DNA of 64,000 nucleotides from contig NZ_JAUSWJ010000001.1 in the NCBI RefSeq assembly GCF_030815145.1, forward strand, positions 1,054,001 through 1,118,000, read 5' to 3'. The DNA is from Kaistia geumhonensis (GTDB lineage: Bacteria > Pseudomonadota > Alphaproteobacteria > Rhizobiales > Kaistiaceae). Below the pieces are notes generated by a model. It saw only the letters and a program-made list of their open reading frames with translations, searched no databases and had not been told where the DNA came from. The position numbers and the translations under genes were made by a program. Of this stretch, positions 26,006 through 45,484 are shown piece after piece (within the stretch, counting starts at the first letter, position 1; every line of letters starts with the position of its first letter).

Positions 26006-26620
26006 CTAGAGCCGGGTCAGCGCCCAGCTGGTGAGTTCGATCAACACCTGGTCGAGTGCCTGGTTGAGCCCGGCGACGGCAGCTGGCGCGGTATCGGCCG
26101 TGACGGGCACGCGGGCACGGAACACCTTGAAATCGACCACGCGGCCGTTGCGGTCGTTCATGAGACGCGCCGAGATCTCGACATCCGCGACCATGCCCGA
26201 GCCGTCGACGACGACGTTGAAGGTGCGGATATCGGTCAGCAGCTGATAGTCGATCGACAGGCCCTCTCCGGGCCGGCCGACGGCATGCGCCTGCTTCGAA
26301 AGCTCGAAGGTCTCGATGATCCGCGCCTGGAGGACGTTCGGCAGCGTGTCGGGATATTGCGCGTCCGGGTAATAGGCCATCAGCGAGCCGCGCGAGACGA
26401 CGATGCGCTGTGTCGCGAGGATCTGCAGCGCAGTCGGCGCCGGGATGAGCACCTGGGCGCGGCCCGCGCGGGAAACCTTGGGCAGTTCGCGCGGGCCCGT
26501 CAGGTCATAGGTGTTCGGCGGCGGCCGCGTGACGAGCGCGCTGACGCAGCCGGCGAGCAGTGTGGCGAGCAGGACGGCGGCCAGAGCGCCGAACGGCAGG
26601 GATCGCGTCATCTTGGCCAT
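26006..26620 (-). CDS. ABC-type transport auxiliary lipoprotein (PqiC/MlaD-associated)
   Basis: A 204-residue lipoprotein at the end of the Mla-type operon. ATG 26620 is preceded by GAGG, and the lipobox LLAGC at the end of a short signal (FGALAAVLLATLLAGC) makes Cys the mature N-terminus. The rest (YDLTGPRELPKV, LIPAPTALQILATQRIVV, DYQLLTDIRTFNVVVDGSG) matches the ABC_trans_aux domain seen in PqiC-like outer-membrane lipoproteins. It begins 35 bases after mlaD stops. It probably links the MCE protein to the outer membrane, standing where MlaA or PqiC would in other systems. Confidence 0.88.
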   Translation of the reverse strand: MAKMTRSLPFGALAAVLLATLLAGCVSALVTRPPPNTYDLTGPRELPKVSRAGRAQVLIPAPTALQILATQRIVVSRGSLMAYYPDAQYPDTLPNVLQARIIETFELSKQAHAVGRPGEGLSIDYQLLTDIRTFNVVVDGSGMVADVEISARLMNDRNGRVVDFKVFRARVPVTADTAPAAVAGLNQALDQVLIELTSWALTRL

Positions 26621-26655
26621 CTTGGTCTGCCCTCGCGGTTGGCGGTAACCCGCGG

Positions 26656-28026
26656 TCATTTGCGGTTGTATTCCTTGACGGTCGGGTTCCCGAAGACGAA
26701 GCCCTGCGGATTGCTCTGAACGGAATTCAGCGTGCGGTTGAACTGCGTCGTCGTGCGCTGCAACTGGTTCACCAGCTGGTCGATATTGCGCAGGCCCGAG
26801 CCCGTGAAGTCGGCGATGTTGGCCGAGATCGCGTCGGCGCGGCCGGCGAAGGCGTCGGCGACCTTGCGGATGGACACCGCCGCGGCCGCCGCCTCCTTGA
26901 AGAAGTTCTTGCTGTCTGGATCGTTCACGATCGCGTCGGCGCCGCCGAGGATCGAGTCGAGCTTCGCCGAGGCGTCGTTGAGCCGGCCCATCAGCTGGTT
27001 GGTGCTGCCGACGATCTGCTCGACCTCAGGCTGCTGCTTGCGGGCGAAGGCGACGAAGTCGCGGGCGTCGGCCACGGCGGCGCTGGCATCGGCAACGATC
27101 TTGTCGACGTCGACGGTCGCGCCCTGGATACGGCGGGCGACGGTCGCGACGTCCTGGATCGTGCTCTTCACGGCCTCGACCTGAACGGCGTCGATGATCT
27201 GCCGCGCCGAGGCGAGCGTCTGGCCGAGCTGCTCCGAGACGTCCTTCACGTTGGAGACGATCTGCGGGAAGGCGTCGGCCGATTGCGCCAGCTTCTCGAC
27301 CACCTTGTCGATCTGGTTGATCGCGTCGGCGATCTTGCTCGGATCGACGGCGGCGAGGATCCTGTCGGCCTTGCCGACGAGGCCCTGCAGGTCGCCCGAC
27401 AGCGCACCGACCTGCTTCGACAGCGCCGAAACATTGGCCAGGAAGTCGTTGATTCCATCGGAGTTCTGCGCCAGCGCGCCGGTGAACTTCTCGACATTGG
27501 CGAGCGTCGTCTTCACCGAGGGCTGGGCGTCGTCGAGGATGACGTTAAGCCGCTCGACGGTCACATTCGCCTTGTTGAGAAGGTCCTGCGCGCTGGTCAG
27601 GATCTCGGAAAGACCGGAGCCCGAAGCGACGAGGGTCGGAATTTCGGTCTCGTCGAAGATGCTCGGCAGATTGGCCGAGCCGCCGCGCAGCTCGATCGAC
27701 GCGATGCCGGTCAGGCCCTGCACGCCGACGGTGGCCTTGGTGTCGGACTTGATCGGCTGGTTGGGGTCGACCGAGACCATGGCCTCGACCTGGTTCGGGT
27801 CCTGCGGGTTGATGCGCAGCGTGGTCACGTCGCCGATTCTGATGCCGTTGAACAGCACCTGGCTGCCATTGGCGAGACCGGTGACCGAGCCGGGAATGAG
27901 GATGCGCAGCGGCTTGCGCGTGCCGCTCTCGTCATAGCGGGCGAGCCAGTAGACGAAGGCGAAGCAGGCGACGATCACCGCCAGGGTGAACACGCCGATG
28001 GTCGCGTAGTTCGCGCGGGTTTCCAT
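26656..28026 (-). CDS. MlaD-family MCE-domain substrate-binding protein
   Basis: Periplasmic phospholipid- or lipid-binding subunit. It has 456 residues, longer than E. coli MlaD (~180). One N-terminal membrane helix (IGVFTLAVIVACFAFVYWLA) anchors it, a single MCE domain follows at about 40-115 (GSVTGLANGSQVLFNGIRIG, GLTGIASIELRGGS), and the rest is a long helical region that probably forms a tube toward the outer membrane. ATG 28026 is 3 bases after the ATPase stop. With permease, ATPase and lipoprotein it completes a four-gene lipid ABC system. Confidence 0.93.
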   Translation of the reverse strand: METRANYATIGVFTLAVIVACFAFVYWLARYDESGTRKPLRILIPGSVTGLANGSQVLFNGIRIGDVTTLRINPQDPNQVEAMVSVDPNQPIKSDTKATVGVQGLTGIASIELRGGSANLPSIFDETEIPTLVASGSGLSEILTSAQDLLNKANVTVERLNVILDDAQPSVKTTLANVEKFTGALAQNSDGINDFLANVSALSKQVGALSGDLQGLVGKADRILAAVDPSKIADAINQIDKVVEKLAQSADAFPQIVSNVKDVSEQLGQTLASARQIIDAVQVEAVKSTIQDVATVARRIQGATVDVDKIVADASAAVADARDFVAFARKQQPEVEQIVGSTNQLMGRLNDASAKLDSILGGADAIVNDPDSKNFFKEAAAAAVSIRKVADAFAGRADAISANIADFTGSGLRNIDQLVNQLQRTTTQFNRTLNSVQSNPQGFVFGNPTVKEYNRK

Positions 28027-28029
28027 GCC

Positions 28030-28824
28030 TTACGCCTGCTCCTCGAGGCGGCGCGCTCGGGCGCCGCGGAAGTATTTCTGAACCCATGGATGATCGAAAG
28101 CGAGCATGTCCTTGATGGTGCCCTCGATCAGCACATGCCGGTCGCCCAGCACGGCGATCCGGTCGCACACCGTATAGAGACTGTCGAGATCGTGCGTCAC
28201 CATGAACACGGTGAGACCGAGCGTATCGCGCAGCGTCGCGATCAGCGCATCGAATTCCGCCGCGCCGATCGGATCGAGGCCGGAAGTCGGCTCGTCGAGG
28301 AACACGATGTCCGGATCGAGCGCCAGCGCCCGCGCGAGGCTGGCGCGCTTGATCATGCCGCCGGAAAGCTCCGAGGGCAGGCGATCGGCCGCTTCCGGCG
28401 CGAGGCCGACGAGGTCGATCTTCAGCCGGGCCAGTTCCTCCATCAGCCGCGGCGAGAGCTTCAGATGCTCGCGCATCGGAAACTCGACATTCTGCAGCAC
28501 GTTGAGCGACGAGAAGAGCGCGCCCTGCTGGAAAAGCACCCCGAGCCGCTGGTCGATCTGCGCGCGGATCGCGGGCTCGGCGTCGTCATAGGGCTGGCCG
28601 AGGATCTCGACACTGCCGGCCGTCTTGGCCTGCAGGCCGAGGATCGTGCGCAGCAGCACCGACTTGCCCGTGCCGGAAGCGCCGACGATGCCGAGGATCT
28701 CGCCGCGATAGACGTCGATGTCGAGATTCTCGAGGATCATGCGCTCGCCGAAGCCGACCGTGATGCCGCGACCGCGGATCACGGTCTCGCTCTTCACGGG
28801 CACGGACGTCTTGCGGACCGCCAT
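28030..28824 (-). CDS. Mla-type ABC transporter ATP-binding protein
   Basis: MlaF-like ATPase, 264 residues. Walker A is VGASGTGKSVLLR, the Q-loop is in LFQQGALFSSLNVLQNVEF, the signature is LSGGMIKRASLARALAL and Walker B is DIVFLDEPTSGLDPIG; the switch histidine is in VTHDLDS. The LSGGM signature is typical of the MlaF/Mkl family. ATG 28824 gives MAVRKTSVPVKSE, two bases after the permease stop; a longer frame reading upstream belongs to the permease gene in another frame. It energises the permease encoded just before it. Confidence 0.94.
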   Translation of the reverse strand: MAVRKTSVPVKSETVIRGRGITVGFGERMILENLDIDVYRGEILGIVGASGTGKSVLLRTILGLQAKTAGSVEILGQPYDDAEPAIRAQIDQRLGVLFQQGALFSSLNVLQNVEFPMREHLKLSPRLMEELARLKIDLVGLAPEAADRLPSELSGGMIKRASLARALALDPDIVFLDEPTSGLDPIGAAEFDALIATLRDTLGLTVFMVTHDLDSLYTVCDRIAVLGDRHVLIEGTIKDMLAFDHPWVQKYFRGARARRLEEQA

Positions 28825-28826
28825 GA

Positions 28827-30014
28827 TCAGTAGCTCACGGCGCTGAAATAGATGGCGAACACGCCGTCGACGACGATGACCATGAAGATCGCCTTCACGA
28901 CGGAGGATGTCGTCCGCGCGCCGAGCGACTCGGCGCTGCCCTGGACGCGGAAGCCTTCGGTCGCCGCGATGATGCCGATGATCAGCGCCATGAACGGCGC
29001 CTTGATGATGCCGACCCAGAAGGTGCTGACATAGACCGCGTCGCGCAGCCGCATGATGAAGGCGGAGGGCGGCAGGCCGACATAAAACCAGCTGACAAGG
29101 CCGCCGCCGACGAGGGCCGAGAAATCGGCGACCACCGTCAGAAGCGGCAGCGCGATCACCAGCGCCAGGATGCGCGGCAGGACGAGCACCTCGTTGACGT
29201 CGAGGCCGATGACGTCGAGCGCGTCGATTTCCTCGCGCATCTTCATCGAGCCGATCTCGGCCGTGAAGGCGCTGCCGGAGCGGCCGGCGATCATGATCGC
29301 CGTCAGGAGCACGCCGAGCTCGCGCAACACGAGGACGCCGACGAGATCGACGACATAGACCTCGGCGCCGAAGGGGCGCAGCTGGAAGGCGCTCTGCTGC
29401 GCGATGATGGCGCCGATCAGGAGCGACATCAGCGAGATGATCGGAACGGCGCGCAGCCCGGCGCGGTCGATGTGGAACACGACCGACGTGATTCGGAAGC
29501 GGCTCGGGTTGACCAGCGCCTTCAAGAAGCCGACGGCGACGCCGCCGAGAATGTTGAGGCCCGCTTCGGCGTCCGAGACGGCGCCATACATGCCGCGGCC
29601 GATGCCCTCGAGCAGCTCGACGACGACGCTCTGCCGCTTCTTGCGCGGCGGCAGCTCGCGCTCCGCGTCCTTGAGCGCCGCCAGAAGGCGCATGACATTG
29701 TCGGAGCCGCCCTCGAAGCTGACCTCGACGCCCTTGGCGCCGACCTCGCGCTCCAGCCGCGTGATCAGCCAGCCGCCGGCGGTGTCGATATGGTCGACGT
29801 CGGAAAGATCGATGACGACGGCGCGATCGGCCGCTGCGACCGCCTTCTCGATTTCGCCCTCGAGGACGCTGGCGCTGGCGAGAGTCCACTCGCCGCGCGG
29901 AACGAGTCGCAGCTGGCCGTCCGAACCGTTTGTTTCGAGTTTCGCCGCTGCTTCAGCCGCCACGACCATTACCGGTGTCGAACCCTCTTGCGGCCGTGAC
30001 CTGCGGGCAGCCAT
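28827..30014 (-). CDS. Mla-type permease with fused N-terminal STAS domain
   Basis: A 395-residue protein joining an MlaB-like STAS domain (about 30-120, with VVIDLSDVDHIDTAGGWLI) to an MlaE permease (about 150-395). The MlaE part has PSRFRITSVVFHIDRAGL, LGVLLTAIMIAGRSGSAFTA, and the EIGSMKMREEIDALDVIG motif, then about five membrane helices. In E. coli MlaB is a separate protein; here it is covalently attached. ATG 30014 is used, and ATG 29969 with AGAGGG before it is an alternative. It is the first gene of the lipid-transport operon. Confidence 0.93.
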   Translation of the reverse strand: MAARRSRPQEGSTPVMVVAAEAAAKLETNGSDGQLRLVPRGEWTLASASVLEGEIEKAVAAADRAVVIDLSDVDHIDTAGGWLITRLEREVGAKGVEVSFEGGSDNVMRLLAALKDAERELPPRKKRQSVVVELLEGIGRGMYGAVSDAEAGLNILGGVAVGFLKALVNPSRFRITSVVFHIDRAGLRAVPIISLMSLLIGAIIAQQSAFQLRPFGAEVYVVDLVGVLVLRELGVLLTAIMIAGRSGSAFTAEIGSMKMREEIDALDVIGLDVNEVLVLPRILALVIALPLLTVVADFSALVGGGLVSWFYVGLPPSAFIMRLRDAVYVSTFWVGIIKAPFMALIIGIIAATEGFRVQGSAESLGARTTSSVVKAIFMVIVVDGVFAIYFSAVSY

Positions 30015-38029: not shown

Positions 38030-38878
38030 ATGAAACTCCTACGCTTCGGCGCCGCGAGCGCGGAGAAGCCGGGCCTTCTCGACAAGGACGGCACGATCCG
38101 CGACCTCTCGGGCGTCGTCTCGGACATTACCCCGGAAACGCTCAAGAACGGTGCGATCGCCAAGATCGCCGCGATCGATCCCGCCACGCTTCCCGCCGTC
38201 GAGGCCGGCGTGCGCCTCGGCCCGATCGTCAACGGCGTCAGGAACTTCATCGCGGTCGGCCTCAACTATGTCGACCATGCGCATGAGACGGGCTCGCCGA
38301 TCCCCTCCGAGCCGATCCTGTTCAACAAGGCGCCGAACTGCATCGTCGGCCCCAACGACACCGTCATCATCCCGAAGAACTCGCAGAAGACCGACTGGGA
38401 AGTCGAACTCGCGATCGTGATCGGCAAGACGGCGAGCTATATCAGCGAAGCCGAGGCGATCGACCACATCGCCGGCTATGCCGTCTGCCACGACGTGTCC
38501 GAGCGTCATTTCCAGACCGAGCGCGGCGGCCAGTGGATGAAGGGCAAGGGCTCGCCCACCTTCGGACCGCTCGGCCCGTGGCTGGTCACGCCGGACGAGG
38601 TCGCCGATGTGCAGAACCTCGACATGTTCCTCGACCTCAACGGCACGCGCGTCCAGACCGGCAACACGAAGACCATGATCTTCGGCGTCGCCCATCTGGT
38701 GTCCTATATCAGCCAGTTCCTGCAGCTCGATCCCGGCGACGTGATCACCACCGGCACGCCGCCCGGCGTCGGCATGGGCATGAAGCCGCCAAAGTTCCTG
38801 AAGGACGGAGATCAGGTCCGCCTCGGCATCGCCGGCCTCGGCGAGCAGCAGCAGACCTTCCGCGCCTGGTCGGCCTGA
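38030..38878 (+). CDS. Fumarylacetoacetate hydrolase-family protein
   Basis: A 282-residue FAH-fold hydrolase. It has VGLNYVDHAHETG, the metal-binding region DWEVELAIVIGKTA (E-x-E), VCHDVSERHFQTERGGQW and ITTGTPPGVGMGMKPP. Proteins this similar (start MKLLRFG, end LGEQQQ) include the 2,4-diketo-3-deoxy-L-fuconate or rhamnonate hydrolases of non-phosphorylative sugar breakdown, so I favour a sugar-acid role over aromatic breakdown. The neighbouring lactonase and DHDPS-like genes fit. It is convergent with the lactonase gene, and a GC stem-loop lies between them. Confidence 0.88.
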   Translation: MKLLRFGAASAEKPGLLDKDGTIRDLSGVVSDITPETLKNGAIAKIAAIDPATLPAVEAGVRLGPIVNGVRNFIAVGLNYVDHAHETGSPIPSEPILFNKAPNCIVGPNDTVIIPKNSQKTDWEVELAIVIGKTASYISEAEAIDHIAGYAVCHDVSERHFQTERGGQWMKGKGSPTFGPLGPWLVTPDEVADVQNLDMFLDLNGTRVQTGNTKTMIFGVAHLVSYISQFLQLDPGDVITTGTPPGVGMGMKPPKFLKDGDQVRLGIAGLGEQQQTFRAWSA

Positions 38879-38952: not shown

Positions 38953-39834
38953 TCAGGCGCCGCGGAAGCGCCAGGCGGGAACGCCGGCGACGAAGGAACG
39001 GCCGACGAAGACACTGCCCGTCAGCGGATAGCGCGCCAGTTCTTCCGCGGTGCGGCCGTCGCGATTGCTGGTCACGAAGAGAGTGCGCCCATCCGGGCCG
39101 CCGAAGCAGGGCATGCTGATCGAGGCCGGGATTTCGAAGCTCTCGACGAGCTGGCCTTCTGCCGACCAGCGGTTCAGCTTGCCAGCCGAGATTCCAGCGC
39201 TCCAGTAATAGCCGTAGACGTCCGTCGCGCCGCCGTCCGGCCGTCCTATGGCGTCGTCCGGCTCGGCGATGCGCGTGCGATCCGAGATCGCGCCGGTATC
39301 GGGATCAAAGGTCCAGCGGTCGATCCAGACGCCACGCGTGTCGGTATGGAACATGGTGCGGCCGTCGGCCGTCCAGGCGAGGCCGTTCGAGGCCTTGATG
39401 CCGTCGACCTTCACCTCGACATTTCCCGACGCATCGATGCGATAGAGCACGGCGATCGCCGCCTTGTCGGGCGCATTGTTGATGCCTCCGACCCAGAAGG
39501 CGCCGTCCGGCCCGACCTTGCCGTCATTGAGGCGCACGGTCGGCAGGTCGGCCCCGACGGTCGCAAGCGTCGTCCGCTCGCCGGTCGCGGGGTCGAAGAG
39601 GATGATGCTGTCCTTGAGCGCCACGACGAAACGGCCGCTTTCGCAAAGGCCGTATGAGGCGACGATCTCCGGAAAGCGCCAGATATGCTCCTCGCCCGAC
39701 TTCAGGTCGACGGCATGGATCTCGCCATCGAGGATGTTGCAGAAAAGAAGCCGGTCGGTGCGGTCGTCATAGACAGGGCATTCCGCCAGCCTGTGCAGCG
39801 TCGGGATGAGAGGTTCGAGGCCGAGGTCGTGCAT
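38953..39834 (-). CDS. SMP-30/gluconolactonase-family protein
   Basis: A 293-residue six-bladed propeller lactonase of the LRE/SMP-30 family, expected to open a sugar lactone. Metal-ligand candidates are Glu18 (LAECPVYDD), the Asn in KASNGLAWTADG and the Asp in GRPDGGATDVYGYYW. ATG 39834 (MHDLGLEPL) has GGAG about 11 bases upstream; longer in-frame starts are in the divergent intergenic region. It is transcribed away from the DHDPS-like gene, 124 bases apart, so they may share a control region. The reaction fits between sugar dehydrogenase and dehydratase. Confidence 0.9.
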   Translation of the reverse strand: MHDLGLEPLIPTLHRLAECPVYDDRTDRLLFCNILDGEIHAVDLKSGEEHIWRFPEIVASYGLCESGRFVVALKDSIILFDPATGERTTLATVGADLPTVRLNDGKVGPDGAFWVGGINNAPDKAAIAVLYRIDASGNVEVKVDGIKASNGLAWTADGRTMFHTDTRGVWIDRWTFDPDTGAISDRTRIAEPDDAIGRPDGGATDVYGYYWSAGISAGKLNRWSAEGQLVESFEIPASISMPCFGGPDGRTLFVTSNRDGRTAEELARYPLTGSVFVGRSFVAGVPAWRFRGA

Positions 39835-39958
39835 GGGTCGCGTCTCCGAAAGGCAGGGGGCGACCATGGCATGAAGCGGCGAGATCGTCGATGCGCGCCG
39901 ATGGTTGACGCCGGTGCGCAAGGCGGACGACAAAGGACGCCAACACGGGGACGAACGC

Positions 39959-40882
39959 ATGAAGACCGATGTCGTCGAGCCGATCGATCTCGCCCGCTCG
40001 GTGATCAGCGTCCCGCCCTTGCCGCGCGGCGCCGACGGCACGCTCGACCGCGAGGAGACGCAGAAGCTCGTCGACCATCTCGCGGCCGGCGGCGTCTCGA
40101 CCTTCCTCTTTGGCGGCAATGCCAATCTCTACAATATGAGCTTTCGCGAGTTCGGCCCCTTCCTCGATCTCATCGAGGATGTGACGCCGGAGGATGGCTG
40201 GGCGATTCCCTCGGTCGGCGCCGACTTCGGCAAGGCAACCGACCAGATCGACATGCTGCGCGAGCGCGGTTTTCCGACAGCGATGCTGCTGCCGGCCTCC
40301 TCGGCTGCGACACCGGCCGGTGTCGCCACCGGCATCCGCCGCCTTGCCGACCGATACGGTCGTCCCCTCATCGCCTATGTCCGCGCCGACGGCTATCTGG
40401 CGCCGCGCGACCTCGCGGCGCTGTTCGACGACGGCGCGGTCGCGGCGCTGAAATATGCGATCGTGCGGTCGGACCCCGCCGAGGATCCGGCGCTCACGGC
40501 GATGCTCGACGCCGCCGGTTCGGCGGAGCGGATCGTCAGCGGCATCGGCGAGCGGCCGGTCATCGCCCATCTCGGCGGTTTCGGGCTGAAGAGCTTCACC
40601 TCCGGCTCCGTGTGCATTGCGCCGCATCTCTCCACCGCCATCCTGCACGCGATGAAGGGTGGCGACATCAACGCGGCCTCGCTGCTGCGCGAGCACTTCC
40701 TGCCGCTCGAAGATCTGCGCGACGCGTATTCCCCGATCCGCGTGCTGCACGAGGCCGTCCGTCTCGCGCGTATCGCCGACACGGGGCCGCTGTCGCCCTT
40801 CCTCGCCAATATCGAGGATCCGGGTACGCTGGACGAGATCGAGCGCGCTGCCTGCCGGCTGCGCGACACGACCTTCGGCTGA
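39959..40882 (+). CDS. DHDPS/N-acetylneuraminate lyase-family protein
   Basis: A 307-residue class I aldolase or dehydratase of the DapA/NanA superfamily. The Schiff-base lysine is in VAALKYAIVRS. The usual GTTGE motif is replaced by LFGGNANLYNMSF, which is outside biosynthetic DapA. Family members of this kind act on 2-keto-3-deoxy sugar acids. ATG 39959 (MKTDVVEPIDL) has GGGGACG before it; the in-frame ATG at 39905 overlaps the control region. It is followed after 232 bases by an ABC importer for a sugar, which suggests one catabolic unit. The precise substrate is not readable. Confidence 0.87.
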   Translation: MKTDVVEPIDLARSVISVPPLPRGADGTLDREETQKLVDHLAAGGVSTFLFGGNANLYNMSFREFGPFLDLIEDVTPEDGWAIPSVGADFGKATDQIDMLRERGFPTAMLLPASSAATPAGVATGIRRLADRYGRPLIAYVRADGYLAPRDLAALFDDGAVAALKYAIVRSDPAEDPALTAMLDAAGSAERIVSGIGERPVIAHLGGFGLKSFTSGSVCIAPHLSTAILHAMKGGDINAASLLREHFLPLEDLRDAYSPIRVLHEAVRLARIADTGPLSPFLANIEDPGTLDEIERAACRLRDTTFG

Positions 40883-41114: not shown

Positions 41115-42197
41115 ATGACCAGGCTCATGAAGACGCTCGCGCTCGGCGCGGCGGTCTCACTCGTCGGCACCTATGCCTATGCGCAGTCGGGAACGCTGGA
41201 CAAGGCGGTCGGCGGCTACACGTTCGAGGACGCCTCCAAGGAGGCAGCCGGCACGAAGGACTTCCATTCCAAGGACGGCAAGCTCACCTTTGCCATCATC
41301 ACCCACACCGCCGGCAACGGCTTCTTCGATCCGACCTATGTCGGCGCCCAGGTCGCCGCCAACGCATTCGGCATCAACCTGATCAAGCTGGGATCGGAAG
41401 CGCCGGTCGACGACATTCCGCGCGAGATCGAAATCCTCAACCAGGTCATCAACGACCCGACCATCGACGGCATCATCATGACGACGCCGCAGTCCGGCGC
41501 CTATGACGACATCGTCAAGAAGGCCTTCGCCAACGGGATTCCCGTCGCGACGACCAACTCCTTCGATCCGAAGCTCGCCAACCGCTCGCAGATCAGCCAT
41601 ACCGGCCAGCAGTCGGCGGCCGCTGCGATCGGCGGCGAGGCGCTCGCCAAATGCGTGCTCGACTCCGGCGCCAAGGGCGGCTCGATCATCTTCCCGTCGA
41701 CCACCACGCTCGGCAACGAAGAGGTGAACCGCCGCGTCACCGCCGCCTTCGAGGCGACCGTGAAGGCGCTGAACGACGCCGGCCGGCTGAACGACTTCAA
41801 GGTCGACGCCGGACCCGAGAACATCGGCATCGACGTCAACAAGGACGACATCGTCAACTCGATCGTCTCGCTCATCGAGTCGCGCGGCGACGTTGTCGGC
41901 GGCTTCGCGGCCAACGGCTTCGTGACGCCCGCCCTCGGCGACGCCGTCGCGCAGTTGAAGCTCAACGGCAAGGTCTGCGCCTTCGGCTTCGACCTCGGAC
42001 CGAAGCAGCAGGAACAGATCCGCACCGGCGCGCTCTCCGGCTCGCTCGGCCAGCAGCCGTTCCTGCAGGGCTTCTGGCCCGTCGCGCAGCTCTATCTCCA
42101 GATCGACCGTGGCATCTCGTCCGCCAATCTCGACACGAGCGCCCAGCTCGTGACGAAGGATACGGTCGACCTGGTCGGCAAGCGCTTCGAGAACTGA
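41115..42197 (+). CDS. Sugar ABC transporter substrate-binding protein
   Basis: A 360-residue periplasmic binding protein of the type I (RbsB-like) fold. The signal peptide is MTRLMKTLALGAAVSLVGTY through AYA. The mature part has LTFAIITHTAGNGFFDPTY, IDGIIMTTPQSGAYDDIV and VGGFAANGFVTPALGDAV, typical of the pentose/hexose group. GGGAGGAA stands before ATG 41115. It is the first gene of a three-gene importer with a double-length permease and a single ATPase. A strong stem-loop follows its stop codon, which may raise its level relative to the membrane genes. Confidence 0.92.
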   Translation: MTRLMKTLALGAAVSLVGTYAYAQSGTLDKAVGGYTFEDASKEAAGTKDFHSKDGKLTFAIITHTAGNGFFDPTYVGAQVAANAFGINLIKLGSEAPVDDIPREIEILNQVINDPTIDGIIMTTPQSGAYDDIVKKAFANGIPVATTNSFDPKLANRSQISHTGQQSAAAAIGGEALAKCVLDSGAKGGSIIFPSTTTLGNEEVNRRVTAAFEATVKALNDAGRLNDFKVDAGPENIGIDVNKDDIVNSIVSLIESRGDVVGGFAANGFVTPALGDAVAQLKLNGKVCAFGFDLGPKQQEQIRTGALSGSLGQQPFLQGFWPVAQLYLQIDRGISSANLDTSAQLVTKDTVDLVGKRFEN

Positions 42198-42374: not shown

Positions 42375-44660
42375 ATGACGGCGATCAGCACCGCCCCTCC
42401 CCTCCGCAGACGCCTGCCCTTCGAGCTGATCGGCGGCTGGGAGATCGGCCTCCTCGCCTTCATGGTGCTGCTCTATGCAGCCGGCGTTGCGATCAACCCC
42501 AAGTTTTTCGGCCAGACCGACGCCTTCTCGGCCATCCTGCGCGATACGGCCCGCTTCGGCGTCATGGCCGCCGGGATGACTTTCGTCATCGTCAACAAGG
42601 ATCTCGACCTCTCTGTCGGATCGACCTTCGGCCTCGTCGCGACGATCTTTTCGATCGCCTTCTCCAAGTCCTATTTCGATCTCGGCATCGTCGCATCGCT
42701 CACGGCGGCGGTCATCACGGGCGTGCTGGTCGGCCTCGTCAACGGCGTGTTCGTCACCGTCCTGCGGGTGCCGGCCTTCATCACCACGCTCACCATGCTG
42801 TTCATCGGCCGTGGCCTCGTGCTCGGCCTGACCGGCGGCAAGACGATCTCCTACAGCGAGAAGGCAACGAGCGACGGCGCCTGGTTCTTCTCCATCGGCG
42901 AGACCAACGCGCTCGGCTTCAACAACCAGATCCTGATCTTCATCCTCGTCACCGTGGTCGGCATGTTTGCGCTGGCCAAGACGAGCTGGGGCTACGAGAC
43001 TTACGCCACCGGCGGCAACGAGCTCGCCGCGACCTATGCCGGCATCCCGACGCGCCGGGTGCGCATGCGCGGCTATGTCCTCTCCGCCCTCTCCGCGACG
43101 CTGGCCGGCCTCATGAGCGTCGCGCAGGACAAGGGCATCACCTCGCAATATGGCCAGGGCGCCGAACTCATCGTGATCGCGGCCGTGATCGTCGGCGGCG
43201 CCTCGATCCTCGGCGGCCGTGGTCGCCTGCTCGGCGGCGCGCTCGGCGCCATCCTCGTCACGCTGATCGACAAGGTGCTCCGCGAGGGCATCCCGATGAC
43301 GCGCGTGGTCAAGGTTGGCGACGTCGAGATGAAGGTGCAGGGCATGGCACAGCTGCCGCCCGGCGCCGTTCCAGCCTTTCTCGGACTTATCCTTCTGCTC
43401 TCGGTGCTCATCGAGCCGTGGATCATCCGCCGCAACGTCTTTCCGCGCCTCTTCGCGCGGCTGATGGGACGGCCGCTGCCGCCGGTCGTCGAAGTCGGCG
43501 GTGTTGCCATCGAAGGCGCGCAGACCAAGGGCTCGTCGGCTCATGACCGCTCGCTGAAGGCTCGCGGGCCGTTCGGCCGCTTCCTGGCGCGCCGCGATGC
43601 GGCGGCGATCATCCTCGCCGTGGCGCTCTGGTGCGTCGGACTCTATCTGCGGCCCGACTTCTGGGGCTCGATCGACAATTCCTTCAACCTGATGCTGTCC
43701 TTCACCGAGGTCGGGTTGCTGGCCATCGGCATGACCTATGTCATTGCCAATGGCGACATCGACCTCTCGGTCGGCTCGGTGCTCGCCCTGTCGGCCGCCA
43801 CCTGCGCCTTCCTCATGAAGCAGCTCGGCTTCGACCCGGCGACTGCGGTCTTCCTGGCCCTCGTGGCGGGCGCGGCGGCCGGCGTCGTCAACGCGCTGCT
43901 CACGGTCGGCTTCGGCCTGCCGGCCTTCGTCGCGACGCTCGGCATGTTCTACATGGCACGCGGCATCGGCGCCTGGTTGACCGCCGGCCGCCAGCTTTCC
44001 TCCTTCCCCGAGGGCTTCAACCTGCTCGGCCGCAAGCTGATCGACGCGCTGACCTATTTCGGCGTGGCCCCGGCGCGAGGGAGCCTTGCCTACGACCTCG
44101 CGGCGGCACTCAGCGTGCAGACGATCTTCATGATCGCGGTCGCGGTCATCGCCGGCCTCGTTCTGGGCAAGACTCCGTTCGGCCAGATGATCTATGCGAC
44201 CGGCGGCAACCGCCGCGCCGCGGAATATGCCGGCATCGACACCGGCCGCGTGCGGGCGATCAGCCTCGTCTTCTCGGCCCTCTGTGCCGCCTGCGCCGGC
44301 GTCATCTATGTCGCCTTCCTGCGCTCGTTCAATCCGTCGGCCGGCCAGCTTCGCGAACTCGACGCGATCGCGGCGGTGATCATCGGCGGCGGCTCGATCT
44401 TCGGCGGCTACGGCACGGTGATCGGGGCGCTGGCAGGCGCGGCAGTGATCGCGCTGATCCGCGCCCTGCTTTCGCTGCAGCTGATCCTCGGCAACGGCCA
44501 GTCCTTCGTGATGCCGCAGCACTGGGTCAACGTCTTCATCGGCCTGATCCTCATGGTCGCCGTGGTCGGCGATGTCTGGATCCGGCAAGGCAATATCGGC
44601 GCGGCGATCCGCCGCCGCCTCGGCGGGCGCCGAAGCGCCGCGCCCCGCACAGCCTCCTGA
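42375..44660 (+). CDS. Sugar ABC transporter permease, tandem fusion of two RbsC-like domains
   Basis: A 761-residue inner-membrane protein containing two complete permease domains of the RbsC/BPD_transp_2 family. Domain 1 (about 20-380) has NKDLDLSVGSTFG, YATGGNELAATYAGIPTRRV and VIVGGASILGGRGR. Domain 2 (about 410-750) has NGDIDLSVGSVLA, YATGGNRRAAEYAGIDTGRV and VIIGGGSIFGGYGT. A charged linker of about 50 residues joins them. Ordinary relatives are single domains of ~330 residues that dimerise. The ATPase gene downstream encodes only one domain, so the fused permease would pair with two ATPase copies. Frames are intact throughout. Confidence 0.9.
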   Translation: MTAISTAPPLRRRLPFELIGGWEIGLLAFMVLLYAAGVAINPKFFGQTDAFSAILRDTARFGVMAAGMTFVIVNKDLDLSVGSTFGLVATIFSIAFSKSYFDLGIVASLTAAVITGVLVGLVNGVFVTVLRVPAFITTLTMLFIGRGLVLGLTGGKTISYSEKATSDGAWFFSIGETNALGFNNQILIFILVTVVGMFALAKTSWGYETYATGGNELAATYAGIPTRRVRMRGYVLSALSATLAGLMSVAQDKGITSQYGQGAELIVIAAVIVGGASILGGRGRLLGGALGAILVTLIDKVLREGIPMTRVVKVGDVEMKVQGMAQLPPGAVPAFLGLILLLSVLIEPWIIRRNVFPRLFARLMGRPLPPVVEVGGVAIEGAQTKGSSAHDRSLKARGPFGRFLARRDAAAIILAVALWCVGLYLRPDFWGSIDNSFNLMLSFTEVGLLAIGMTYVIANGDIDLSVGSVLALSAATCAFLMKQLGFDPATAVFLALVAGAAAGVVNALLTVGFGLPAFVATLGMFYMARGIGAWLTAGRQLSSFPEGFNLLGRKLIDALTYFGVAPARGSLAYDLAAALSVQTIFMIAVAVIAGLVLGKTPFGQMIYATGGNRRAAEYAGIDTGRVRAISLVFSALCAACAGVIYVAFLRSFNPSAGQLRELDAIAAVIIGGGSIFGGYGTVIGALAGAAVIALIRALLSLQLILGNGQSFVMPQHWVNVFIGLILMVAVVGDVWIRQGNIGAAIRRRLGGRRSAAPRTAS

Positions 44661-44674
44661 CGAGGGAGTTCCCC

Positions 44675-45484
44675 ATGACCAAGAGCCCCGCCATGTCCTC
44701 CGGTCCCGCCACACCGCTGCTCATCGAGATGCGCAACATCTCGAAGGCTTTCGGCCCCGTCCAGGCGCTGCGCGACGTCAATCTCCGCCTGGCGCCGGGC
44801 GAAATCCTCGGCCTCGTCGGCGACAACTCGGCCGGCAAGTCGACGCTGATGAAGGTGATGACCGGCGCCTATCAGCGCGATTCCGGCGATGTGCTGGTCG
44901 ACGGGCGGCCGACGCATTTCAAGAGCCCCCATGAAAGCCGCGTTGACGGCATCGAGATGATCTATCAGGACTTCGCGCTCTGCGGAAACATGGACATCGC
45001 GCAGAACATCTTCCTCGGGCGCTGGCCGCGCCGCGGCCTCTTCGTCGATCGGAAGCGCATGTATGCCGAGGCCGAGGAGGTGCTGAAGCGCCTCAAGGTC
45101 GATGTGAACTCGGTGTTCCAGAAGGTCGAGAGCCTGTCGGGCGGGCGCCAGCAATCGGTTGCCATCGCACGCGCCATCTCGTTCAACCCGCGCGTGGTCG
45201 TACTCGACGAGCCGACCGCCAATCTCTCGGTCATGGCGACGGAACGGCTGCTGGAGACGATGGCCGAGCTGAAGCGCCACGGCGTCGCGCAGATCATAAT
45301 CTCGCACCGGCTGACCGACATCTTCGATGTCGGCGACCGGATTATGGTGATGAAGCGCGGCCAGGCCGTCGGCGACCGCTATATCCGCCACACCGACGAG
45401 GCCGAGGTGCTGGAGCTCATCGTCTCCGGCACGCCGGAAACCGCGTTGACAGCCGACCAGGCGCTCGCAGCCAAGGCAGCCTAG
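44675..45484 (+). CDS. Sugar ABC transporter ATP-binding protein (single domain)
   Basis: A 269-residue ATPase starting at ATG 44675 with GAGGGAG upstream, 14 bases after the permease stop. Walker A is LVGDNSAGKSTLMK (49-60), the Q-loop is IYQDFALC, the signature is SLSGGRQQSVAIARA, Walker B is VVVLDEPTANLS and the switch is IISHRLTD. Sugar ATPases such as RbsA are fused pairs of ~500 residues; this is one unit, like FrcA of rhizobial fructose import. Longer upstream frames overlap the permease in another frame. A palindromic repeat region follows. Confidence 0.92.
   Translation: MTKSPAMSSGPATPLLIEMRNISKAFGPVQALRDVNLRLAPGEILGLVGDNSAGKSTLMKVMTGAYQRDSGDVLVDGRPTHFKSPHESRVDGIEMIYQDFALCGNMDIAQNIFLGRWPRRGLFVDRKRMYAEAEEVLKRLKVDVNSVFQKVESLSGGRQQSVAIARAISFNPRVVVLDEPTANLSVMATERLLETMAELKRHGVAQIIISHRLTDIFDVGDRIMVMKRGQAVGDRYIRHTDEAEVLELIVSGTPETALTADQALAAKAA

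Follow-up and report, generated by a model that had tools for sequence, protein, structure and literature searches.

The closest described relatives of the system considered here are the RbsABC-type sugar importers (RbsC, AraH, XylH and YtfT/YjfF; CUT2, transporter classification 3.A.1.2), among which a two-domain ATPase is common but not universal. In E. coli, rbsA spans 1506 bases (501 codons, a double ATPase) and rbsC 966 bases (321 codons). A 2013 survey, in the part that treats 17 CUT2 membrane proteins, gives them 7–12 predicted helices, none near 20, and presents the internal repeat of FhuB as a 20-helix case (PMC3654945). Part of a study on FhuCDB describes 20 helices in one chain, arranged as two halves around one path, with near-identical FhuC copies, symmetrical FhuB coupling helices and misaligned FhuD lobes (PMC8660799). 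The subject of the present analysis is a cassette of three transporter genes, all on the forward strand, in a window of 64,000 nucleotides from Kaistia geumhonensis (contig NZ_JAUSWJ010000001.1, positions 1,054,001 to 1,118,000; coordinates below are those of the window). The genes encode a Peripla_BP_4 protein (41115–42197), a permease (42375–44660) and an ATPase (44675–45484). An initial annotation had claimed that the permease joins two RbsC-like domains in one 761-residue chain beside a single-domain ATPase, the opposite of the RbsA/RbsC arrangement, and the E. coli gene sizes agree with that contrast. The parts of the cassette are as follows.

41115..42197, + strand: substrate-binding protein, 360 aa, Peripla_BP_4 (CUT2-type sugar-binding), first gene of the cassette (PF13407, E 1.3e-30)
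42375..44660, + strand: fused double permease, 761 aa, two RbsC-type domains (two PF02653 stretches, open frame, codon-position GC, fused full-length orthologues)
42435..43430, + strand: N-half membrane domain, residues 21–352, about ten predicted helices (AlphaFold2 secondary structure; single clade in trees)
42981..43046, + strand: putative N-half coupling segment, residues 203–224 (...GGN..AA..AGI; mean conservation 0.87)
43284..43364, + strand: insertion in the N-half helix 9–10 loop, residues 304–330, modelled as a beta-hairpin and predicted periplasmic (loop lengths; strands 306–314 and 317–325)
43431..43589, + strand: linker between the halves, residues 353–405, predicted cytosolic (column conservation; predicted local distance difference test score, pLDDT, <50 at 372–396)
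43590..44588, + strand: C-half membrane domain, residues 406–738, about ten predicted helices (AlphaFold2; single clade in trees)
44172..44237, + strand: putative C-half coupling segment, residues 600–621 (mean conservation 0.82)
44675..45484, + strand: one-domain ABC ATPase, 269 aa, RbsA-like (first-domain type), catalytic motifs all intact (PF00005 once)

The permease contains two PF02653 stretches (Pfam, 239.9 bits against a cut-off of 26.8; protein E 3.5e-71) within a frame that is open for 761 codons, and its third-position GC lies between 0.82 and 0.96 in each of 15 in-gene blocks of 150 bases, including the junction, while block 16 passes the stop. The double domain is thus confirmed. 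Its membership of CUT2 is indicated by the PF02653 domain and by the RbsA-like ATPase and Peripla_BP_4 protein of the same block, and the two equivalog models compared with it stay below their curated cut-offs (RbsC, 278.1 bits against 398; GguB, for multiple monosaccharides, 287.5 against 450). The genome of 4.59 Mb is rich in importers of the RbsC type, with 70 PF02653 places, among which, judged by frame lengths, only this gene has two in one frame.

Aligned with each other, the halves share 34% identity over 347 columns (E 1e-34), and with nine CUT2 permeases of E. coli they share 25–37%. In 31 representatives, to which 62 near-full-length fused proteins were reduced so as to lie under 84% identity, the same residue is fixed at ≥90% in both halves at 62 columns, and the halves are fixed at different residues, each at ≥90%, at 26 columns with gap columns excluded (31 when columns with a fixed gap in one half are also counted). 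The different signature residues noticed at the outset are borne out in these representatives. Both halves retain the motifs DLSVG and GGN...AA..AGI. The linker is less conserved than either membrane body (mean 0.61 versus 0.77). Within it, an alignment of 27 sequences shows A361, P369, A378 and T384 to be invariant and R358 and G386 to be nearly so (around GGVAIEGxQTxG), a sign that the linker may have a partner, perhaps the ATPase.

The same fusion was found in the order, in the class and in plasmid records. At family level, the fused orthologue is present at full length in 16 of 28 genomes (here and below with the own genome included), and contig ends reduce it to pieces in another two. The order has matches at E ≤ 1e-60 in 20 of 397 sampled genomes, all 20 of them spanning both halves; one of them is flagged with a TGA, and its open frame of 815 codons contains both domains. 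The class search gave three matching genomes among 385, both of the others fused, and the phylum search three among 398, the others being two members of the same order. A scan of a genome collection, which reaches close relatives and does not bear on independent CUT2 fusions in distant phyla, yielded 37 loci, including Kaistia, Chelatococcus, Mesorhizobium, Inquilinus, Thalassobaculum and Dongia. One double match in the analysis (L027) is a single domain split in two and was excluded from the fused count. The closest named records have permease identities of 85–90% (Kaistia species), 89% (Mesorhizobium sp.) and 96% (Bosea sp.). Among 72,556 plasmid records, 35 match (Rhizobium 17, Sinorhizobium 14, Phyllobacterium 3, Ensifer 1), each with a single place that covers 80% or more of the query, and the annotation, where given among 30 of the 35, reads 'ABC transporter permease' or 'sugar ABC transporter permease'. 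In CP087972.1 (Rhizobium sp. RCAM05350) and NZ_CP104968.1 (Phyllobacterium sp. A18/5-2) the matches to the fused permease fall in several pieces, and these copies may be broken.

An unfused orthologue was not found: with the N-half as query, scores in 249 genomes drop from 436.7 bits for the lowest fused protein to 144.2 bits at 39% identity, the best single permease on plasmids is only 38% identical, and the C-half query retrieves from plasmids the fused group alone at E ≤ 1e-25. By these searches, members of this orthologue group in Alphaproteobacteria are as a rule fused, the group itself being of patchy occurrence, and the fusion was not seen in the rest of the CUT2 family as sampled. Of the suggestion that the fusion might be standard for its family, the part that stands thus concerns the orthologue group (20 of 20 in the order, 35 of 35 on plasmids), and it fails for RbsC-type permeases at large.

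Two records from the scan deserve a remark on their names. L038, a metagenome-assembled genome labelled Bosea sp., is 88–91% identical to the window over about 14 kb and looks like a close relative of it. The cassette DNA of L054, a contig labelled Mycobacterium sp. KBS0706, is 91% identical over about 12 kb to that of Inquilinus limosus (L064), and the name Mycobacterium is probably wrong.

The AlphaFold2 model of the permease (mean pLDDT 77.2; predicted template modelling score 0.77) has two helical halves, either of them with about ten helices, and a linker that is poorly ordered at 372–396. When it was compared with the PDB by Foldseek, the sole match under E 0.001 was FhuB of E. coli (7lb8_B, E 1.7e-6); BtuC, BhuU and a metal-chelate permease occupy ranks 18, 25, 35 and 45, with probabilities of 0.92–1.00 and weak E-values. 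Unrelated structures such as P-glycoprotein and BetP, many of which rank between FhuB and the BtuC types with low probabilities, were not used. In a second structure comparison, rows 1–9 are all importer permeases of the BtuC/FhuB/PsaC kind, and FhuB is matched over 525 residues (16 to 734) in both halves (Z 13.4, root-mean-square deviation 5.7). The predicted model thus has two ten-helix halves in one chain with a type II fold, as in FhuB, and it lends support to the proposal of the initial annotation that the pore is a built-in heterodimer. Among PDB sequences, neither the single permease sequence nor a 27-row profile had a match up to E 1.

The ATPase has a single PF00005 stretch in its 269 residues (Pfam), as had been read from the frame. 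Its best NCBIfam match is RbsA, over positions 4–239 of 501 (222.9 bits, below the cut-off of 745). The second ATPase domain common in CUT2 is absent. The Walker A motif (GDNSAGKST), Q98, SGGRQ, D178–E179 and H211 are invariant in 22 aligned orthologues, and a homodimer would therefore hold two working sites. The contrast with RbsA is real, but as an oddity the single domain has lost its force: three more one-domain ATPases lie near PF02653 permease genes in the own genome (frames of 270, 302 and 266 codons), and a plasmid cassette (L079, 2762–5610) has one of 243 codons beside a single permease. FrcBCA of Sinorhizobium is likewise a CUT2-type importer with a one-domain ATPase.

The halves are most alike where they would meet the ATPase. 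The two putative coupling segments are conserved at 0.87 (N) and 0.82 (C), against 0.77 for either body; the motif of the N-half segment is common to the C-half and largely to the E. coli permeases, and a coupling role would follow from the BtuC/FhuB precedent. When the helices are placed according to the model, the two halves are 0.56 identical in cytoplasmic, 0.35–0.36 in membrane and 0.15–0.16 in periplasmic segments, and among orthologues the periplasmic segments are 0.57 (N-halves) and 0.69 (C-halves) identical. This periplasmic divergence was at first a candidate proof of separate roles for the halves; it was weakened by the single-permease control given below, and the insertion between helices 9 and 10 was relied on instead. 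That segment (residues 298–334) has 37 residues in all 31 N-halves, 21–26 in C-halves and 17–18 in all 72 sampled single permeases, from which the N-half insertion of about 20 residues is absent. The segment between helices 5 and 6, with 49–51 residues in C-halves versus 35–37 in N-halves, is weaker evidence, as 9 of the 72 singles have at least 45 residues there. The periplasmic placing of these loops is that expected from the ten-helix, N-inside layout of BtuC and FhuB.

Taken together, these observations suggest a CUT2-type importer in which both membrane domains form one chain of about 20 helices in a FhuB-like arrangement. Two copies of the one-domain ATPase would pair as a homodimer, with both ATP sites intact, and would push against the two coupling segments, which are alike and lie one in each half. 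On the periplasmic side the halves are unlike; each would probably be adapted to one of the binding protein's lobes, and the pore would open as a built-in heterodimer. The gene would have arisen by one old duplication and then been inherited in fused form by scattered Alphaproteobacteria, and the imported sugar, probably a D-galactose/L-arabinose-like aldose, would undergo intracellular oxidation along a dehydrogenase–lactonase route. As a whole, a one-chain pseudodimeric CUT2-type permease on a homodimeric ATPase, of old duplicate origin and serving a galactose/arabinose-like aldose, is in our judgement the probable explanation. It is built on the fusion and its conservation, the sister relation of the halves, the intact ATPase motifs, the FhuB-like predicted fold and the N-half insertion, all of them computed here.

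Several points weigh against this explanation. The AlphaFold2 model was built on 27 related sequences, its Foldseek superposition on FhuB is loose (template modelling scores 0.44/0.51, root-mean-square deviation 15.6 over 778 columns), the other eight of rows 1–9 in the second comparison cover the C-half only, and a Z of 13.4 is close to the values (up to about 13) that helical proteins may commonly reach; the strongest structural support is therefore the ranking of FhuB and its relatives ahead of every other row. Low periplasmic relative to cytoplasmic identity is general in the family, with 8% of 1225 control pairs of single permeases, of like divergence, at least as skewed as the two halves, and the halves share 0.12 and 0.13 of their periplasmic residues with single permeases compared with 0.16 between themselves. 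The stoichiometry of one chain with two ATPases is one that we infer. Finally, in the neighbourhood scan described below, 16 of 36 loci are without any of eight marker proteins and two more have weak matches only, and there is no sugar kinase or dehydrogenase among the scanned genes next to the cassette of the window.

It could be speculated further that the group represents a separate and as yet undescribed branch of sugar importers, in which one gene specifies an obligately asymmetric pore with a two-fold cytoplasmic face and two unlike periplasmic docking surfaces, an independent parallel of FhuB. The N-half hairpin, the smaller C-half insertion between helices 9 and 10 and the longer C-half loop between helices 5 and 6 would make up these surfaces, one for each of the binding protein's lobes, and docking would then be possible in one direction only. 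This extension is offered tentatively, the case for it falling a little short of balanced.

The probable substrate is deduced from the gene neighbours, and those of the window's cassette are as follows.

38030..38878, + strand: FAA-hydrolase-family enzyme, sugar-acid catabolism type (NCBIfam 2,4-didehydro-3-deoxy-L-rhamnonate hydrolase, 434.7 bits, cut-off of 500 not reached)
38953..39834, − strand: lactonase of the SMP-30/gluconolactonase type, divergent from the cassette (PF08450, E 1.3e-65; the start at 39834 is a guess, and the longest frame extends to 40125)
39905..40882, + strand: DHDPS/KdgD-like protein, upstream of the cassette, start perhaps later at about 39965 (PF00701, 22.4 bits, cut-off 22.1)

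The DHDPS-like protein may be a divergent sugar-acid dehydratase or aldolase, and is possibly a catabolic partner of the cassette. The 31 relatives found for the binding protein in the PDB mostly have sugar-binding names, and its gene lies directly upstream of the fused permease wherever a locus holds enough 5' DNA; L065 is an exception, in which 2.6 kb of upstream DNA is present and the usual binding protein is unmatched there.

A De Ley–Doudoroff-type route is used for D-galactose and likewise for L-arabinose-like sugars. For D-galactose it is sketched in part of a published account (PMC12421959). Neighbourhoods were scanned in 36 loci (L038–L059, L061–L069 and L077–L081), of which L049, L055 and L061 are short (<7.2 kb); L060 and L070–L074, which run into contig ends, were left out, as were L001–L037, L075 and L076, being short or duplicates. 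A DGOK kinase and a KDPGal-type aldolase occur together beside the cassette in five of the 36 (L047, L050, L057, L059 and L069), and an aldose dehydrogenase at ≥48% identity in nine, L047 and L059 having supplied the query proteins. In L059 (Dongia deserti) and L057 (a metagenome-assembled genome labelled Rhodospirillum), similarity places a KDPGal-type aldolase, a 2-keto-3-deoxygalactonokinase, GguC/AraD1, a GntR regulator, an aldose 1-dehydrogenase-type SDR and a lactonase around the cassette. Six of the nine catabolic candidates of a first look were assigned by such similarity to L047 and L059 proteins and not by a family scan of each locus; among the representatives themselves, the L047 kinase belongs to PF05035 and the L047 aldolase is above its cut-off, L059 has a GguC above its cut-off and the GntR regulator, and the best match of the SDR is D-xylose 1-dehydrogenase (340 bits, cut-off of 400 not reached). 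The neighbour genes of the five loci would fit a De Ley–Doudoroff-type pathway, galactonate dehydratase not being among the genes sought. Two related loci also have a gamma-glutamyltransferase gene downstream of the cassette (L047, 9673–11415, and L050, 9026–10774).

The eight loci of the Kaistia type have other neighbours, a lactonase in seven and an upstream DHDPS-like protein in six, instead of galactose-route genes. Because of this difference and of the 16 marker-free loci, a D-galactose/L-arabinose-like aldose is called the probable substrate and not a demonstrated one. It is quite possible, though the less favoured reading, that something else is imported, such as a 6-deoxy sugar, a sugar acid or an unusual aldose, and that the galactose genes of the five loci are atypical. 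The best score of the FAA enzyme at 38030, below its cut-off, is to a model of the 3-deoxy-L-rhamnonate pathway, and the marker-free loci point the same way, though they include the three short ones; mandelate-racemase-family, aldose-epimerase and FAA-family genes occur at the Ensifer locus, but around the neighbouring single-permease cassette. Against this stand the kinase and aldolase pair in five loci, the dehydrogenase in nine, and the L057 and L059 cassettes, ringed as they are by dehydrogenase, lactonase, kinase, aldolase, GguC/AraD1 and regulator.

The origin of the two halves was examined in two trees. The first held the 31 fused representatives, 48 rows entered as single permeases and the nine E. 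coli permeases; single permeases of the own genome came from stretches around most, not all, of the 70 PF02653 places, and 30 rows passed the length and score limits. The N-halves fall into a single clade, to which the C-halves are sister, with a joint support of 99 in the Shimodaira–Hasegawa-like approximate likelihood ratio test (SH-aLRT), and one row entered as single (L070) falls among the C-halves, being a truncated fused copy. For the second tree, 14 of the 31 representatives were retained, 24 single rows were added, and nine rows were dropped (near-copies from L020 and L021, an outlying long-branched group from L025, L026 and L114, and the truncated L070). The added singles were the nearest from searches of 249 and 240 genomes, many of which overlap the earlier searches. 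The 14 N-halves, 14 C-halves and 72 singles then separate into three clean groups, with an SH-aLRT of 99 and a bootstrap of 100 for N and C together, the bootstrap not being fully settled. Because the halves are sister clades, the simplest reading is one old tandem duplication within a single-permease gene; a tandem pair that was duplicated first and fused later is also possible and would give the same tree.

A fusion between the separate and previously diverged permease genes of a two-permease system, with no duplication within one gene, appears unlikely. Such systems exist, YtfT/YjfF for example, and both clades, N and C, sit on long branches (1.18 and 0.87 changes per column in the first tree, 1.08 and 0.70 in the second). 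Yet N and C are sisters apart from all 72 sampled singles, including the nearest found, no single in the sample branches with only one of the two clades, and in both trees YtfT and YjfF fall outside N and C, each beside a permease of the own genome. A fusion of two known permease types likewise receives no support from the trees.

It is very improbable that one of the halves is a regulator or scaffold outside a working pore made from two chains. The 26 differently fixed columns and the different loop lengths could be taken in that sense, but DLSVG and GGN...AA..AGI are present in both halves and the model matches FhuB across both. That a sequencing or assembly error, or the in-frame loss of a stop, joined two permease genes in this genome only can be rejected with near certainty, since, although two-gene CUT2 permeases exist (YtfT/YjfF, LsrC/LsrD), the same fused frame is conserved in other genomes and assemblies of several genera, at 96% identity in the Bosea-labelled L038, and its linker has invariant positions; the lost stop that the initial annotation had named as a possible refutation does not hold.

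Elsewhere in the window, the reverse-strand frames at 26006–30014 resemble, by eye from the list of open reading frames, a lipid transport cluster of the Mla/MCE type, with an ABC ATPase, a permease with a STAS-like start and an MCE protein.

The binding protein of a homodimeric importer, itself asymmetric, has to dock on a pore with two-fold symmetry. A natural permease of one chain with two different halves allows one half to be mutated at a time, and the share of each half in docking, gating and coupling could thereby be tested in a sugar importer. With the present group, the FhuB layout would also be known from two cases, apparently independent of each other, the new one being a permease without a solved relative by PDB sequence searches.

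When set beside the known systems, the cassette is like the RbsABC-type importers in its PF02653 domains, its Peripla_BP_4 protein and its RbsA-like ATPase, and differs from them in having two domains per permease chain, a one-domain ATPase and extra residues in the helix 9–10 loop. CUT2 importers with one-domain ATPases, such as FrcBCA and the L079 cassette, are alike in the ATPase, and their permease is single-domain. No description of a fused CUT2 permease was found among the papers listed from open PubMed Central, a scope that does not extend to subscription journals or TCDB. The furanose importers YtfQRT–YjfF and GafABCD, as far as they are treated in part of one report, resemble the cassette as CUT2 systems with two different permeases and sugars of the galactose/arabinose type (PMC10191376), but YtfQRT–YjfF has two permease genes, which lie elsewhere in the trees, and E. 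coli YtfR, at 1503 bases, is of two-domain size. FhuB is similar in its 20 helices in one chain, its two halves around one path, its matching coupling helices and its two near-identical one-domain ATPases, and it is different in sequence, with 10–12% identity in the structural alignment. A Pfam scan of the permease at E ≤ 0.001 gives PF02653 alone, and the binding protein is of the sugar type (PF13407) and not of the siderophore type. FhuB/FhuC belongs with another binding-protein family and another substrate, and its layout apparently arose by a separate duplication. Of the original interpretation, the fused permease and the one-domain ATPase stand; the combination of the two is already described for another importer family, FhuB/FhuC, in part of the FhuCDB study (PMC8660799). 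The importer is thus of the CUT2 type by sequence, FhuB/FhuC-like by layout and outside the FhuB family, in a layout that is itself already known.

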